Shown: positions 9,354 to 14,468 of the stretch, piece after piece
Position numbering within the stretch: position 1 is the first letter of the stretch
Layout: the number at the start of each line of letters is the position of its first letter
From: Chryseobacterium gleum
GTDB taxonomy: Bacteria > Bacteroidota > Bacteroidia > Flavobacteriales_D > Sanyastnellaceae
Reading direction: 5' to 3'
NCBI GenBank assembly: GCA_945874695.1
Contig: CAMCHP010000033.1
Location: forward strand, 1-33,103
Length of the DNA stretch: 33,103 nt
Program-made: the position numbers and the translations under genes
Notes under the pieces: model-generated
Seen by the model: the letters and a program-made list of their open reading frames with translations, nothing else
Databases searched by the model: none
What the model was told of the DNA's origin: nothing

Positions 9354-10313
9354 ATGACGAGTTATGTAATGGGGATCCCAAGTGTAGATCTCGCTGACTA
9401 CATGTCAACCGACCCTGAGCGAAAAGCAAAATTTGTTGCCCAATTAGGTGCAGCATACGAGAACATCGGTTTTGTGGCTGTTAAAAATCACTTGGTTGAT
9501 GCATCAACCATTGATCAGCTTTATGCTGAAGTAAAAAGGTTTTATGAACTGCCCGTGGATGTCAAGCATTCGTATGAAGTTGAGGGCTTGGCCGGGCAAC
9601 GCGGTTACACCTCTTTTGGAAAAGAACACGCGAAAGACAGCAATGCAGGCGATTTGAAAGAATTCTGGCATTTCGGGCAAGAAGTGCAGGGCGACGACCC
9701 CATTAAATCAGAATACCCTGATAACGTGTTTGTGAGCGAACTTCCTGAGTTCAATCGCGTTGGTTTGCTCGCTTATCGCCAGCTTGAAAACACGGGCCGT
9801 TTAATGCTTCAAGCTATTGCGCGGTTCCTGAACCTTGATGAGCATTATTTCGATGCGAAGATTCACAATGGGAATAGCATTCTGCGCCCCATTCATTACC
9901 CGCCAATCACATCGGAGCCTAAATCAGCCGTGCGCGCAGGTCAGCACGAAGACATCAACCTCATTACGCTCTTGATTGGCGCCTCTGCTGAAGGTTTGCA
10001 AGTGTTGAATAAGCAAAATGAGTGGATCGATGTAACCGCCCTCCCCGATCACATTGTTGTGAATGTGGGTGACATGTTGCAACGTTTAACCAACAACCGA
10101 CTCAAGTCAACGACCCACCGCGTGGTGAATCCACCGCGCGAAAAATGGGGAACTTCACGCTTCTCAATTCCGTTTTTCTTGCACCCGCGATCAGAAATGC
10201 GTCTTGATTGCCTGCCGTCGTGCATACCTGCGGGTGAAAATGCACTTTATGAACCCATCACAGCTGGCGTATACCTCGATGAGCGTTTGGCTGAGATTGG
10301 CCTGAAAAAATGA
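9354..10313 (+). CDS. 2-oxoglutarate/Fe(II)-dependent oxygenase (isopenicillin N synthase-like)
   Basis: This 319-residue protein has the two parts of the isopenicillin-N-synthase superfamily: the DIOX_N region (about 7-120, IPSVDLADY with NIGFVAVKNH) and the 2OG-Fe(II) jelly roll (about 170-280). The iron ligands are visible as H198 and D200 (GQHEDINL) and H255 (STTHRVVNP), with R269 and S271 of SRFS binding 2-oxoglutarate. These enzymes hydroxylate or oxidise small molecules in the cytosol; the substrate cannot be read here. An alternative start is Met6 (MGIPSVDLADY). Its stop overlaps the next gene in ATGA, putting it at the head of the molybdenum cofactor operon, an association worth noting because no known cofactor step needs such an enzyme. 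Confidence 0.88.
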   Translation: MTSYVMGIPSVDLADYMSTDPERKAKFVAQLGAAYENIGFVAVKNHLVDASTIDQLYAEVKRFYELPVDVKHSYEVEGLAGQRGYTSFGKEHAKDSNAGDLKEFWHFGQEVQGDDPIKSEYPDNVFVSELPEFNRVGLLAYRQLENTGRLMLQAIARFLNLDEHYFDAKIHNGNSILRPIHYPPITSEPKSAVRAGQHEDINLITLLIGASAEGLQVLNKQNEWIDVTALPDHIVVNVGDMLQRLTNNRLKSTTHRVVNPPREKWGTSRFSIPFFLHPRSEMRLDCLPSCIPAGENALYEPITAGVYLDERLAEIGLKK

Positions 10314-10687
10314 AGCTACGTATTAAAGACAATAGTCTACGCTTTCGACTTACCCGCTCTGAAGTTGATGCCTTGCATCAGCTTGGGCGGGTAAGTGCTG
10401 AAACGGCGTTTCCAAATGGTGGAACATCATTTTCTTATACGTTGGCTACACGTACTGACGGACAAGGCAACGCGAACTTCGCGCAGGGGCAAATTGTGGT
10501 TACCCTCGATGCGAAGCAAGTTGAACAATGGGCATCAACCGCTGAAGTTGGCATTACTTTTGAACTACCTTTAGATTCGGGTGATGCTTTAGTTGTGCTG
10601 ATCGAAAAAGATTTTAACTGTTTGGTCGTGCGCTCCGGAGAAAATGAAACCGACCATTTTCAGAATCCGCTGAGTGAAAGAGAATGA
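10310..10687 (+). CDS. Small conserved protein of unknown function in the molybdopterin operon
   Basis: This 125-residue protein starts MKLRIKDNSLRFRLTRSEVD and has no signal peptide, membrane span or cysteine cluster. Predicted strands alternate (TSFSYTLATRT, QIVVTLDAKQVEQW, ALVVLIEKDFNCLVV), suggesting a compact beta-rich fold. From memory it resembles a small uncharacterised Bacteroidota family (possibly the one named DUF7009), which has the same KIRIKxNSLRLRLT opening. It is coupled on both sides by ATGA overlaps to the 2OG oxygenase and MoaA, so it is made together with them. The function is unknown; the setting suggests a role linked to molybdenum cofactor or the enzyme that uses it. 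Confidence 0.75.
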   Translation: MKLRIKDNSLRFRLTRSEVDALHQLGRVSAETAFPNGGTSFSYTLATRTDGQGNANFAQGQIVVTLDAKQVEQWASTAEVGITFELPLDSGDALVVLIEKDFNCLVVRSGENETDHFQNPLSERE

Positions 10688-11667
10688 TAGAAGATCGCTA
10701 CAATCGGGTGATTGATTATGTGCGTTTGGCCGTTACAGACCGTTGTAACCTGCGGTGCACATATTGCATGCCCGAACATTTCAACGACTTCTTATCGAAG
10801 TCAGCATTGCTGTCTTATGAAGAGCTGTTGCGGTTAATGCAGCTGCTTTCAAACTTGGGCGTGCGCAAACTGCGCATTACAGGCGGCGAACCTTTTGTGC
10901 GACGCAACCTGATGGAGTTCATTGAGCAAATCGCTGAACAACACCTCTTTGAGCAAATTCACATCACAACCAATGGGGTTTTAACAGCCCCTTTGATTCC
11001 TCGTCTGAAAGCGGCCGGTATAAGCGGGGTCAATTTATCGCTAGATACCCTCAATCGCGAGCGATTTTTCCAAATCACGAAACGCGACCAACTCCCTGAG
11101 GTCTTGCAAACGTTAGATCAGCTCGTGGCGCACGACATTCCAACACGCATCAACATGGTCGTGATGCCAAATGTCAATACCGACGACATACTAAGTATGG
11201 CCGAACTTACCCAAGATCGCCCCATCGAAATGCGCTTCATCGAAGAGATGCCCTTCAACGGATCAGGTTCAACCCCTACTTTAACTTGGAACTACCAACG
11301 CATTCTGCAAGAGCTTAGTACCAAATTCGATCTTACACCCGAAAGTTACGAACGCAACGGAACCGCAATGCGTTATAGCATCAACGGACATCAAGGCAAG
11401 GTCGGTATTATCGCAGCCTATAGCCGTACCTTTTGTGGCACCTGCAATCGCCTCCGCATTAGTCCGAAAGGCGAACTGCAAACCTGCCTGTACGGCCGAA
11501 GCACCCACAGTGTATTTGATGCCTTGCGAAGCAATGCCTCTGACGATGCCGTTCGCGATACCATCCTTCAGGCCGTGCATTTGAAACCCGCAGATGGCTT
11601 CGCTGCAGAACAAGAAATGATTGCTCATGAACACATGCACCGAAGCATGAACACCATTGGAGGATAA
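10684..11667 (+). CDS. moaA: GTP 3',8-cyclase MoaA
   Basis: This radical SAM enzyme catalyses the first step of molybdenum cofactor synthesis, turning GTP into 3',8-cyclo-GTP, which MoaC then converts to cPMP. The 327-residue length is normal. The N-terminal SAM cluster is CNLRCTYC (C21, C25, C28), followed by the GGEP motif (67-70). The second Fe-S cluster site is FCGTCNRLR with C251, C254 and downstream C268. The protein ends in the double glycine (326-327) that the family uses to complete the active site. The ATG overlaps the previous stop (ATGA) and moeA follows after 2 bases. Confidence 0.97.
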   Translation: MIEDRYNRVIDYVRLAVTDRCNLRCTYCMPEHFNDFLSKSALLSYEELLRLMQLLSNLGVRKLRITGGEPFVRRNLMEFIEQIAEQHLFEQIHITTNGVLTAPLIPRLKAAGISGVNLSLDTLNRERFFQITKRDQLPEVLQTLDQLVAHDIPTRINMVVMPNVNTDDILSMAELTQDRPIEMRFIEEMPFNGSGSTPTLTWNYQRILQELSTKFDLTPESYERNGTAMRYSINGHQGKVGIIAAYSRTFCGTCNRLRISPKGELQTCLYGRSTHSVFDALRSNASDDAVRDTILQAVHLKPADGFAAEQEMIAHEHMHRSMNTIGG

Positions 11668-11669
11668 GA

Positions 11670-12878
11670 ATGATTTCCATTGAACAGGCGAGAGAAATCA
11701 TGCAGCTTCACCGCTTCGATCCTGAAATCGAGCATGTGACCTTGCAACGCGCGTTGGGGCGCACCTTGGCGATTGATGTGTTTGCAGATCGCTCCCTCCC
11801 ACCTTTTGACCGGGTTTCAATGGACGGCATTGCCGTTGCAGCAGCCGATCTTGATGCGGGTATTCGCAGCTTTTACTGTGAATCAAAGCAATTTGCCGGC
11901 GAACCTGCTGTGCGTCGATCAGATAACGCAGGAACATGCATCGAAACCGCCACGGGCGCTGTGCTGCCCGGAAATTGTGACACAATCATCCCGTACGAAG
12001 CGCTCATTGAAACCGCTGATGCCTTCATCCTGCGTGATGCGATTCACGTGAAACCCTACCAAAATGTGCATCGAGCGGGAAGCGATTTGCCCGAGAACAC
12101 CCGCATCCTGCCGTTAGGCAGCACAATTGATGCTGCAGCAATTGCGGCACTTGCCAGTGTTGGTTACGCCCAAGTACCTGTTTTTACTTTGCCTCGAACG
12201 GCGATCGTGAGCACCGGTGATGAGCTGGTTGATGTGGAGCAAATTCCGCTGCCCCATCAAATTCGCCAGTCCAATGCGCATACGATTCAAAGCTTGCTGC
12301 AACCTTTGGGTGTGCATGCAACGCATTATCACCTCGATGACGACCGCAGTGTTATGCTCAATTGGCTCGCATCGCATACATCGCGTTTTGATCTCATCAT
12401 CTTCTCTGGCGGCGTTTCGATGGGAAAGAAAGATTTCTTGCCCGAAGTGCTTGCAGAAATTGGTGTTGAAAAACACTTTCACAAGGTTAGCCAACGTCCG
12501 GGTAAACCCATGTGGTTTGGCAGTAAGCAAAACATGCATGTGTTCGGATTGCCGGGTAACCCAGTCAGTACCTTTTTATCGGTGATTCTGCACGTGCGTC
12601 CGTGGATTGCCAGCAGCGCGCCCCTCGCAACCCTTGCACCTGAACCGGTATTGCTCGGTGAATCGTTTGAATTTGCGCCTGAACTCACCCTGTTTCAACC
12701 CGTAATTCTCAAGAACGAAAACGGCTGCCTGTATGCCTATCCAGTGCGCGGCAATGGCTCAGGCGATTATCATAGCCTCATTCAATGCACGGGTGTGATC
12801 GAGCTTCTAGCGCATCGCAACCGTTTTGAACGCGATGAAATTGTTCACTATACCTCATTTGCATGGAGAAAAAACTAA
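11670..12878 (+). CDS. moeA: Molybdopterin molybdenumtransferase MoeA
   Basis: MoeA inserts molybdenum into adenylylated molybdopterin. The 402-residue protein shows the family motifs in order: LPPFDRVSMDG (43-53), TATGAVLPGNCD (94-104), STGDEL (181-186), SGGVSMGKKDF (246-256), QRPGKPMWFG (275-284) and GLPGNPVSTFLS (293-304). Domain III holds SGGVSMG and the C-terminal domain IV is present, so the protein is complete. It starts 2 bases after the moaA stop and its last 16 bases overlap moaC. The usual partner for adenylylation (MogA or MoaB) is not encoded in this window. Confidence 0.96.
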   Translation: MISIEQAREIMQLHRFDPEIEHVTLQRALGRTLAIDVFADRSLPPFDRVSMDGIAVAAADLDAGIRSFYCESKQFAGEPAVRRSDNAGTCIETATGAVLPGNCDTIIPYEALIETADAFILRDAIHVKPYQNVHRAGSDLPENTRILPLGSTIDAAAIAALASVGYAQVPVFTLPRTAIVSTGDELVDVEQIPLPHQIRQSNAHTIQSLLQPLGVHATHYHLDDDRSVMLNWLASHTSRFDLIIFSGGVSMGKKDFLPEVLAEIGVEKHFHKVSQRPGKPMWFGSKQNMHVFGLPGNPVSTFLSVILHVRPWIASSAPLATLAPEPVLLGESFEFAPELTLFQPVILKNENGCLYAYPVRGNGSGDYHSLIQCTGVIELLAHRNRFERDEIVHYTSFAWRKN

Positions 12879-13339
12879 GCCATATCAACGACGGAAATCC
12901 AGAAATGGTTGACGTAGGCGCGAAAACAGCAGCTTTGCGAACGGCCACCGCTCGCGCCATTGTTCGATTTCCTGCTGAAGTGTGGGATGTTTTAGCGCGT
13001 GATGGATTCACCACCCCAAAGGGCGCACTGCTGCAAACAGCGAACCTGGCGGGCGTGATGGCTGCCAAGCAAACCTCGAGTTTAATCCCCTTGTGTCATC
13101 CGCTGGCCCTCGAAAAAGTGAGCATACACTTTGAACAAGCCGCGCCTGATCTGCATATTTTGTGCGAGGCTCGCATTACCTCAAAAACAGGCGTTGAAAT
13201 GGAAGCACTAACGGGTGCATCCATTGCAGCACTTACCGTGTACGATATGTGTAAGGCGCTTTCACACGATATTCAAATTACCGCTATTCGACTTGAGTCG
13301 AAACGCGGAGGCAAAAACGATTTTTCGCGTGATGCATGA
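12863..13339 (+). CDS. moaC: Cyclic pyranopterin monophosphate synthase MoaC
   Basis: MoaC converts the MoaA product 3',8-cyclo-GTP into cyclic pyranopterin monophosphate. The 158-residue length is normal. Motifs are MVDVGAK (15-21), LIPLCHPL (74-81), SKTGVEMEALTGAS (107-120) and YDMCKAL (127-133), with KRGGK near the C-terminus (147-151). The start lies 16 bases inside moeA and the end overlaps the following mobA-like gene by 8 bases, so translation is probably coupled throughout. Confidence 0.97.
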   Translation: MEKKLSHINDGNPEMVDVGAKTAALRTATARAIVRFPAEVWDVLARDGFTTPKGALLQTANLAGVMAAKQTSSLIPLCHPLALEKVSIHFEQAAPDLHILCEARITSKTGVEMEALTGASIAALTVYDMCKALSHDIQITAIRLESKRGGKNDFSRDA

Positions 13340-14468
13340 AAAGCACCCCAAGCTCGAGCGAACGAATGTGCAAACGTTCGCTTGGCATGAAATCGGCTTC
13401 TTCGGCGAGGCATGCGACACCATTCAGCGCATCTGCGGTGAAATCAGTGCGCACTTGCCCCAATTCAGCTGCGTTTACATTGATGCCGACCACAGTGCAC
13501 TCGACAACCCTGAACTCATCAACCGCAGCAACGGCGCACTCAAAGCCGAAATCATTGATCAGCAAGGGCAGTTCAGTTTGTTTTCGGCCTATCGGCCGGA
13601 TGGTCATGGCTTGACAGGGCTCGCCGATCAATTCGATTTGGCCTTGATCAACGCCAATCATTTCATACCTAAACAGACGGTTTTGTTGTGGAATAACGAC
13701 CGTTTGCCCCGCATTCTCAAACGCAAAGAACAGCTCGCCCAATGCATTGCTGTCGCAGGCATCACCCCAAGCGATCTGCCTGAATCGGTGCGTGAATTTT
13801 TGCCGCAGGATGTCGCATACCTCGACAGCAATGCCGCCAGCATTGCGCAGTTCATCGCTGCGCAAGTTCCGGTAGCACCCGTATTCGGATTGATTTTAGC
13901 GGGTGGACAAAGCACCCGCATGGGAATCGACAAGGCGCATATCGACTTCTACGGTAAACCGCAATACGCGCATGCCAGCGACATCGTTTCGGCGCATGTG
14001 GACGAAGTATTTCTCTCGGTCAACACGGCAGATCGATTCCCCGATTATGAGCAACGTTTGCTTGACAGATTTCATGGGTTTGGGCCGTTTGGCGCAGTGC
14101 TTACAGCCTTTGCACACAATCCGAATGTGGCTTGGCTGGTGGTCGCCTGCGATTTGCCCTTAATTGATCACGCCTTCATCGCCGAGTTACTATCCAAGCG
14201 CGACCCGTCGAAGGTGGCCACGGCATTTATGAATCCTGAAACGGGTTTTCCTGACCCCTTATGCACCCTTTGGGAACCCAAGGCCTATGTGCGCCTGTTG
14301 AATTTCTTAGCACGCAGCTATAGTTGTCCGCGTAAGGTTCTCATTAACAGCGACATCGCATGTATTGAAACACAAACGCCTGAGAAATTACGCAATGTGA
14401 ACACGCCCGAAGAGCTTGCAACTGTACGTGCGATGATTCAAGCGCAAACGGCCACTAATCCCAAATAA
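13332..14468 (+). CDS. Two-domain protein: MobB-like N-terminal region fused to MobA guanylyltransferase
   Basis: From ATG 13332 the protein has 378 residues. The C-terminal part (about 183-378) is a MobA-type nucleotidyltransferase that attaches GMP to molybdopterin: LAGGQSTRMGIDK (189-201) is the GTP-binding loop, followed by FGPFGAVLTAF and ACDLPLI (272-278). The N-terminal part (1 to about 180) is an alpha/beta domain with the segments CVYIDADHSALD and FDLALINANHF. It may be a degenerate MobB-like domain, but I see no P-loop, so GTP binding there is doubtful. From memory the same layout occurs in other Bacteroidota next to moaC. An earlier in-frame ATG at 13215 lies deep in moaC and is rejected. 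The end overlaps the convergent M28 peptidase gene by 14 bases. Confidence 0.88.
   Translation: MHEKHPKLERTNVQTFAWHEIGFFGEACDTIQRICGEISAHLPQFSCVYIDADHSALDNPELINRSNGALKAEIIDQQGQFSLFSAYRPDGHGLTGLADQFDLALINANHFIPKQTVLLWNNDRLPRILKRKEQLAQCIAVAGITPSDLPESVREFLPQDVAYLDSNAASIAQFIAAQVPVAPVFGLILAGGQSTRMGIDKAHIDFYGKPQYAHASDIVSAHVDEVFLSVNTADRFPDYEQRLLDRFHGFGPFGAVLTAFAHNPNVAWLVVACDLPLIDHAFIAELLSKRDPSKVATAFMNPETGFPDPLCTLWEPKAYVRLLNFLARSYSCPRKVLINSDIACIETQTPEKLRNVNTPEELATVRAMIQAQTATNPK

Follow-up and report, generated by a model that had tools for sequence, protein, structure and literature searches.

The window analysed here, a 33,103-nucleotide stretch of Chryseobacterium gleum DNA (contig CAMCHP010000033.1), carries a small gene lodged between a 2-oxoglutarate (2OG)/Fe(II) oxygenase gene and moaA, a gene of molybdenum-cofactor synthesis. 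Its 125-residue product belongs to the Pfam family DUF7009 (PF22668). We found that DUF7009 is co-inherited with FdhD, with formate dehydrogenase (FDH) of the FdhF/YdeP type and with moa genes, and that its gene often stands between those for FdhD and FdhF. Judged from these sequence data, DUF7009 is probably an accessory factor for active FDH of the bis-molybdopterin guanine dinucleotide (bis-MGD) type, working late in the molybdenum-cofactor route, next to FdhD. An earlier reading of the window made without database searches (the sequence-only reading) had proposed that the oxygenase and the small protein either work on the substrate of some molybdoenzyme or contribute a step or a maturation factor to the pathway. 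The co-occurrence data favor a maturation factor in the case of DUF7009; the oxygenase part of the proposal did not hold.

DUF7009 is co-inherited with FdhD and formate dehydrogenase

DUF7009 was present in 33 of the 296 genomes that make up our sample of the window's phylum. All 33 also carry MoaC, which was found in 177 of the 296 genomes overall. FdhD was detected in 35 genomes, 22 of the 33 with DUF7009 versus 13 of the other 263, and the FdhF/YdeP enzyme family (TIGR01701, matches above the cut-off) in 37, including 24 of the 33. Fisher tests of the association with DUF7009 by genome gave p values of 1e-8 for MoaC, 2e-16 for FdhD and 7e-19 for FdhF/YdeP. Repeated by genus, they gave 2e-5 for MoaC and 6e-10 for FdhD. 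The sequence-only reading had suggested counting how often homologs of the small protein and of the oxygenase are neighbors of moa genes, and on this count DUF7009 tracks molybdenum strongly.

In the window's taxonomic family, the match between DUF7009 and FdhD is exact. DUF7009 was found in 20 of the 31 genomes of this family; FdhD was present in all 20 and in none of the other 11, and so were matches to FdhF/YdeP or a related FDH, a count that includes a fragment in G403 and an FDH of another type in G364 and G385. MoaC was detected in 19 of the 20 and in 0 of the 11. Counted by genus, FdhD was found in 12 of 12 genera with DUF7009 and 0 of 5 without it (p 1.6e-4). As a separate observation, the MoaC match at G307:C3:1623617-1623991 contains one TGA.

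DUF7009 is encoded with fdhD and fdhF or with cofactor genes

We examined 35 of the 36 places in the phylum sample at which DUF7009 is encoded; the one in G008 was not retrieved with long flanking sequence, and two matches 4 nucleotides apart in G272 were counted as one place. Molybdenum genes in the fetched loci were identified in phmmer comparisons with a small set of reference proteins, which can miss distant ones; selected neighbors, chiefly at places where phmmer gave no molybdenum gene, were run through Pfam. At 18 of the 35 places DUF7009 has FdhD and/or an FdhF/YdeP-type FDH as a neighbor, often in the order fdhD-DUF7009-fdhF, and at another 7 it adjoins moa or mobA genes. The commonest partner of DUF7009 is fdhD-fdhF, not moa. 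A factor encoded at times with fdhD-fdhF and at times with moaA or mobA would suit the stretch of the route that leads from cofactor synthesis to cofactor loading. Its tree (128 columns, 141 rows), although mostly unresolved with 71 of 136 inner branches open, shows only that gene contexts, used as labels, cluster and have switched repeatedly.

Several individual loci were also recorded. In G272 (C9:11134-11500) the DUF7009 gene is split over two frames between FdhD and FDH, by either a real frameshift or an assembly error. Neighbors put to Pfam at places free of molybdenum genes were of the menaquinone, electron-transfer-flavoprotein, tetrapyrrole methylase, Crp and other types. DUF7009 lies within menaquinone-type gene sets in three genomes (L043 9998-10330, L045 9725-10135 and L033 9585-9926), and these sets include a chorismate-binding enzyme, a MenD-like thiamine-pyrophosphate enzyme, an alpha/beta hydrolase and an enoyl-CoA hydratase.

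Similar arrangements were found outside the phylum sample. We looked at the best 80 of 564 confirmed DUF7009 loci in named records, which were found with five query sequences, three of them from loci where FDH adjoins DUF7009. The 80 loci span Bacteroidota, Acidobacteriota, Chlorobiales, Myxococcales, Proteobacteria and one member of the Phycisphaerales. FdhD is encoded in 36 of the 80, a share that may be biased upward by the queries and downward by short contigs; in 31 it is found no more than 500 nucleotides upstream and on the same strand, and in some it overlaps DUF7009. A molybdenum gene was found within 5 kb of DUF7009 in 45 of the 80. On an annotated Granulicella plasmid, fdhF is followed by fdhD, which overlaps DUF7009 by 4 nucleotides. 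Among other neighbors, sulfate-permease genes (SulP + STAS), possibly for molybdate or sulfate uptake, adjoin DUF7009 in L129, L144, L089 and L095. A protein with hemerythrin and MobA-like domains adjoins it in a Myxococcaceae record (L140 7850-9001), and a ScdA_N/hemerythrin protein does so in L132.

Closer to the window, 120 genomes of its order were searched and 25 of these contain DUF7009. The arrangement of the window, oxygenase-DUF7009-moaA, was found in 16 of the 25, DUF7009-moaA in 3, oxygenase-DUF7009 in 2, fdhD-DUF7009-fdhF in 2 (G308 and G342) and neither partner in 2. G342, whose gene order was taken from match coordinates, is a member of the window's family, and G308 of its order. 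Set against the moa-linked copies, the G342 operon means that DUF7009 occurs in both fdh and moa operons within one family. A fusion of DUF7009 with FDH in G342 (L088) was considered and rejected; a 222-residue open frame and separate coordinates indicate two neighboring genes.

The formate dehydrogenase of the window genome lies on another contig

We found that the window genome, which has one copy of DUF7009, encodes FdhD and an FDH on a separate contig, C61. There (L073 5487-12380), a response regulator, a histidine kinase, formate-tetrahydrofolate ligase, FdhD and an FdhF/YdeP enzyme follow one another in a row. It is possible that this row represents a route from CO2 or formate to one-carbon units, or one of formate oxidation. 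The enzyme scores 906 bits against TIGR01701 (cut-off 582). Its NMCHESSG segment aligns with NMCHEPTS of YdeP and keeps the Cys-His pair, a motif near the metal that we take to be of the FDH type. The FdhD of C61 retains its CGIC loop. An in-frame TAG stop suspected in this gene was rejected, the TAG being the gene's own terminal stop.

The C61 enzyme is the only clear PF00384 protein in the window genome; the other match, a 1086-residue frame, scores 30 bits. Therefore this FDH, with the xanthine oxidase and sulfite oxidase families not having been searched for, is probably the main enzyme supplied by the moa operon that contains DUF7009.

Conserved residues and predicted fold of DUF7009

The sequence-only reading had described the 125-residue protein as unknown. 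It does carry a family label, with a score of 116 bits against a gathering threshold of 27 and residues 1-120 aligned to positions 1-118 of the 119 in the profile, and it is true that no function is on record. A search of one open-licence library of 5.39 million texts found no publication naming the family. At an E value of 0.001 Pfam reported DUF7009 alone, with no match to FdhD (PF02634) or DUF1641, and a PDB sequence search gave a single chance match (E 1.6).

Across 141 relatives M1, K2, R4, R11, R13, E99, K100 and D101 are kept in 96-99%, and C104 is kept in 132. The window protein has R4, R11, R13, E99, K100, D101 and C104 all present. An AlphaFold2 model (mean pLDDT, the predicted local distance difference test, 95.3) predicts with confidence a small single domain, rich in strands and with two main helices. 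The strand order of this model suggests that the three arginines cluster near the E-K-D-x-x-C motif. Two genomes, G064 and G158 (L051 and L060 with L050 and L059), have two DUF7009 copies each; in both, the copy adjoining FdhD-FDH is without the conserved cysteine and the distant copy retains it.

DUF7009 compared with known accessory proteins

The system-specific molybdoenzyme chaperones, such as NarJ/TorD, NapD, XdhC and FdhE, are dedicated accessory proteins, and the genes of many adjoin that of the enzyme that they mature (excerpts of PMC10609526). DUF7009 has no sequence relation to these by Pfam and no clear fold match and, unlike them, is also encoded with moaA and mobA. FdhD, an accessory sulfurtransferase, is described as binding bis-MGD, sulfurating it and loading FDH (excerpts of PMC10609526), and an interaction among MoeA, MobA, MobB and FdhD has been reported for Methylorubrum (excerpts of PMC13197769). 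These excerpts describe FdhD as an accessory protein that handles the cofactor. Like FdhD, DUF7009 is encoded beside FDH, and the two are co-inherited. However, their sequences are unrelated, and since FdhD is also present in 22 of the 33 DUF7009 genomes and its CxxC was kept in all 13 copies examined, DUF7009 is an addition to FdhD there and not a version of it. ForE, a DUF1641 protein of the B. subtilis formate dehydrogenases, is likewise an unknown-function domain encoded with FDH (excerpts of PMC8808070); it belongs to a different Pfam family, and DUF7009 also accompanies cofactor genes at sites apart from the catalytic gene. By sequence, then, DUF7009 is neither FdhD nor a subunit of the ForE type. 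Its inheritance, and its encoding with enzyme and cofactor genes, would place it among the molybdoenzyme accessory proteins.

We propose that DUF7009 acts in the cytoplasm, where it would bind either the apo-enzyme or the cofactor, perhaps by way of R4, R11 and R13 near E99-K100-D101-x-x-C104. It would thereby help the Moa/MoeA/MobA/FdhD line to deliver sulfurated bis-MGD to the enzyme. In the lineage of the window, the DUF7009 gene is part of the moa operon and not of an fdh operon, and FDH and FdhD are on another contig.

The oxygenase is probably a passenger in the operon

The first gene had been read as a 2OG/Fe(II) oxygenase, and this was borne out. Both of its Pfam domains score above the cut-off (Table 1), and H198-x-D200, H255 and R269 are present by position, in the HxD...H...R pattern that we take to be the motif of these enzymes. 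The closest sequence in the PDB, and so the closest solved relative, is 3oox, a putative 2OG-Fe(II) oxygenase (E 1.5e-73, aligned over residues 25-317). Among the literature matches listed for this code, we found no function for it.

At an E value of 1e-30 the oxygenase was found in 67 of the 296 phylum genomes, one match each, and 65 of these belong to the window's class, of which 73 genomes were sampled. MoaC is missing from 18 of those 65. Within the family the oxygenase is present in 30 of 31 genomes, including 11 of the 12 that have no MoaC. As a control we inspected 17 oxygenase loci from other genomes, and none had a molybdenum gene within about 7 kb. The neighbors elsewhere (SUI1, PNP_UDP_1, NMT1-like, DUF1835, chromate transporter and E1/transketolase) suggested no function. 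The oxygenase is thus nearly class-wide and shows no preference for molybdenum genes, the outcome that the sequence-only reading had named as undoing the proposed link.

In a tree of the oxygenase, the 18 copies linked to DUF7009 fall in one supported clade of 20, together with two unlinked copies (G385 and G346). The G346 genome has no MoaC, DUF7009 or FdhD. Copies in the family are either 73-82% or 46-58% identical to that of the window, from which we suspected paralogs; the tree puts the 18 linked copies in the one clade and the low-identity copies elsewhere, and the suspicion was set aside. One genome has two copies (G364:C92 and G364:C33), 79% and 54% identical to that of the window; the closer one adjoins DUF7009, and the other groups with copies of other families.

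On the phylum and order counts, the gene contexts and the tree, we rejected the oxygenase as a molybdenum gene, and a molybdenum role for it is not supported. It is probably a passenger in the operon, and sharing an operon with DUF7009 and moaA may mean shared control. On this view it is a class-wide gene whose role is unrelated and which, in one clade, came to head the operon.

Evidence against an accessory role and rival explanations

Several observations weigh against DUF7009 as an FDH accessory factor. The Fisher tests take no account of descent beyond the genus-level repeat. FdhD is absent from 11 of the 33 DUF7009 genomes, and 6 of the 33 have neither FdhD nor an FdhF/YdeP enzyme above the cut-off. 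Conversely, 13 FdhD genomes and 13 FdhF/YdeP genomes do without DUF7009, and so it is not always needed. At 9 of the 35 phylum places no molybdenum gene was found among the neighbors of DUF7009, and at one more (G214) an FdhF-like enzyme lies about 0.5 kb away but is not adjacent. Among the 80 named loci, 35 have no molybdenum gene within 5 kb, and in one proteobacterial clade all 7 loci are in unrelated surroundings. G342 (L088) and G308 (L082), whose assemblies are rated 99% complete, have DUF7009, FdhD and FDH with no MoaC detected. C104 is absent from 9 of the 141 relatives; because two of these adjoin FdhD and FDH, it is unlikely that DUF7009 uses obligatory thiol chemistry. Lastly, no solved structure clearly shares the fold by Foldseek (none of 551 matches at E 0.001, and those found weak) or by VIA-align (best Z 4.8, to Suppressor of Fused, with unrelated proteins at the top).

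Some of these points would suit a role earlier or more general in cofactor synthesis, such as a carrier of a MoaA/MoaC intermediate or a helper of MobA, in place of one specific to FDH. In favor of this, all 33 DUF7009 genomes have MoaC, DUF7009 adjoins moaA or mobA at 7 of the 35 phylum places and moaA in 19 of the 25 genomes of the order, and 6 of the 33 genomes have neither FdhD nor FdhF/YdeP. However, 144 phylum genomes carry MoaC without DUF7009, so the cofactor pathway runs without it, and the commonest neighbors are FdhD and FDH, with an exact match to FdhD in the window's family. We consider such a general role unlikely. A bolder reading is that DUF7009 is a second cofactor hand-off protein able to replace FdhD, and that in some genomes with an FdhF/YdeP enzyme but no detected FdhD it would by itself bind bis-MGD and load or even sulfurate FDH. 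Half of the 10 FdhF/YdeP genomes without FdhD carry DUF7009: G134 and G182, in which DUF7009 adjoins the enzyme gene, and G128, G242 and G293. We regard this stand-in role as quite unlikely.

A small subunit or redox-partner adaptor of FDH, by analogy with ForE, would explain why the catalytic gene adjoins DUF7009 in many genomes, and ForE itself is a precedent (excerpts of PMC8808070). But in the window's family and others DUF7009 is found with moaA or mobA, apart from the enzyme gene; it is also present in genomes without an FdhF/YdeP enzyme, and Pfam reports no DUF1641 in it. A subunit or adaptor therefore seems decidedly unlikely to us. That the oxygenase works with DUF7009, in an oxidative step of cofactor maturation or on the substrate of a molybdoenzyme, is highly improbable. 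Of the 20 genomes of the family that carry DUF7009, 18 have the oxygenase next to it, and in two of these 18 (G364 and G412) moaA is not beside them, but the oxygenase is also found in MoaC-less genomes of the family and the class, and the single clade of linked copies also holds the unlinked G346 copy. Chance packing beside molybdenum genes, to which the 9 places without molybdenum neighbors might point, is close to untenable in view of the co-occurrence with FdhD by genome and by genus, its exactness in the family and the fact that the pairing with fdhD turns up again in records of Bacteroidota, Acidobacteriota and other taxa.

The operon in the window

The oxygenase, DUF7009 and moaA open reading frames (319, 125 and 327 residues) are joined by stop-start overlaps that both read ATGA, just as the sequence-only reading had stated. 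Start/stop overlaps are frequent in tightly packed operons, and so these alone are little evidence of a link. The recurrence of the same gene order in 16 of the 25 DUF7009 genomes of the order means that it is no local accident. Two glycosyltransferase genes, identified by Pfam, lie 5' of the oxygenase, and further cofactor genes follow moaA (Table 1). The top NCBIfam match of the MobA-type frame, PRK14490, is below its cut-off, and from reading the sequence its gene probably starts at the ATG at 13332.

Table 1. Genes of the oxygenase-DUF7009-moa operon, by position in the window.
Feature	Position	Strand	Evidence
2OG/Fe(II) oxygenase (DIOX_N + 2OG-FeII_Oxy)	9354..10313	+	PF14226 2.9e-25, PF03171 5.7e-22, both above cut-off
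DUF7009 protein, 125 residues; candidate bis-MGD formate dehydrogenase accessory factor	10310..10687	+	PF22668 1.4e-33
moaA, GTP 3',8-cyclase	10684..11667	+	TIGR02666 338.3 bits (cut-off 284.05); PF06463, PF04055
moeA, molybdopterin molybdotransferase type	11670..12878	+	PF03453, PF00994, PF03454
moaC	12863..13339	+	PF01967 1.6e-48; NCBIfam moaC above cut-off
MobA-type guanylyltransferase open reading frame, N-terminal extension like MobA/MobB fusions	13215..14468	+	PF12804 4.6e-26

Implications

This neighborhood is no ground for annotating the oxygenase as a molybdenum gene. For DUF7009, a Pfam family without a function gains a role that can be tested. Formate dehydrogenases are wanted for CO2 reduction and are hard to produce in active form in foreign hosts, since their maturation is incompletely understood. 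If DUF7009 is an accessory factor as we propose, it would be an overlooked conserved partner of FdhD in Bacteroidota, Acidobacteriota and others, and a missing ingredient for co-expression. Excerpts of PMC10609526 state that fdhD is absent from some organisms with formate dehydrogenase, and a stand-in role of DUF7009, if true, would answer that absence. A conserved partner of this kind would also open an approach to the handover of bis-MGD, organisms that lack FdhD included.

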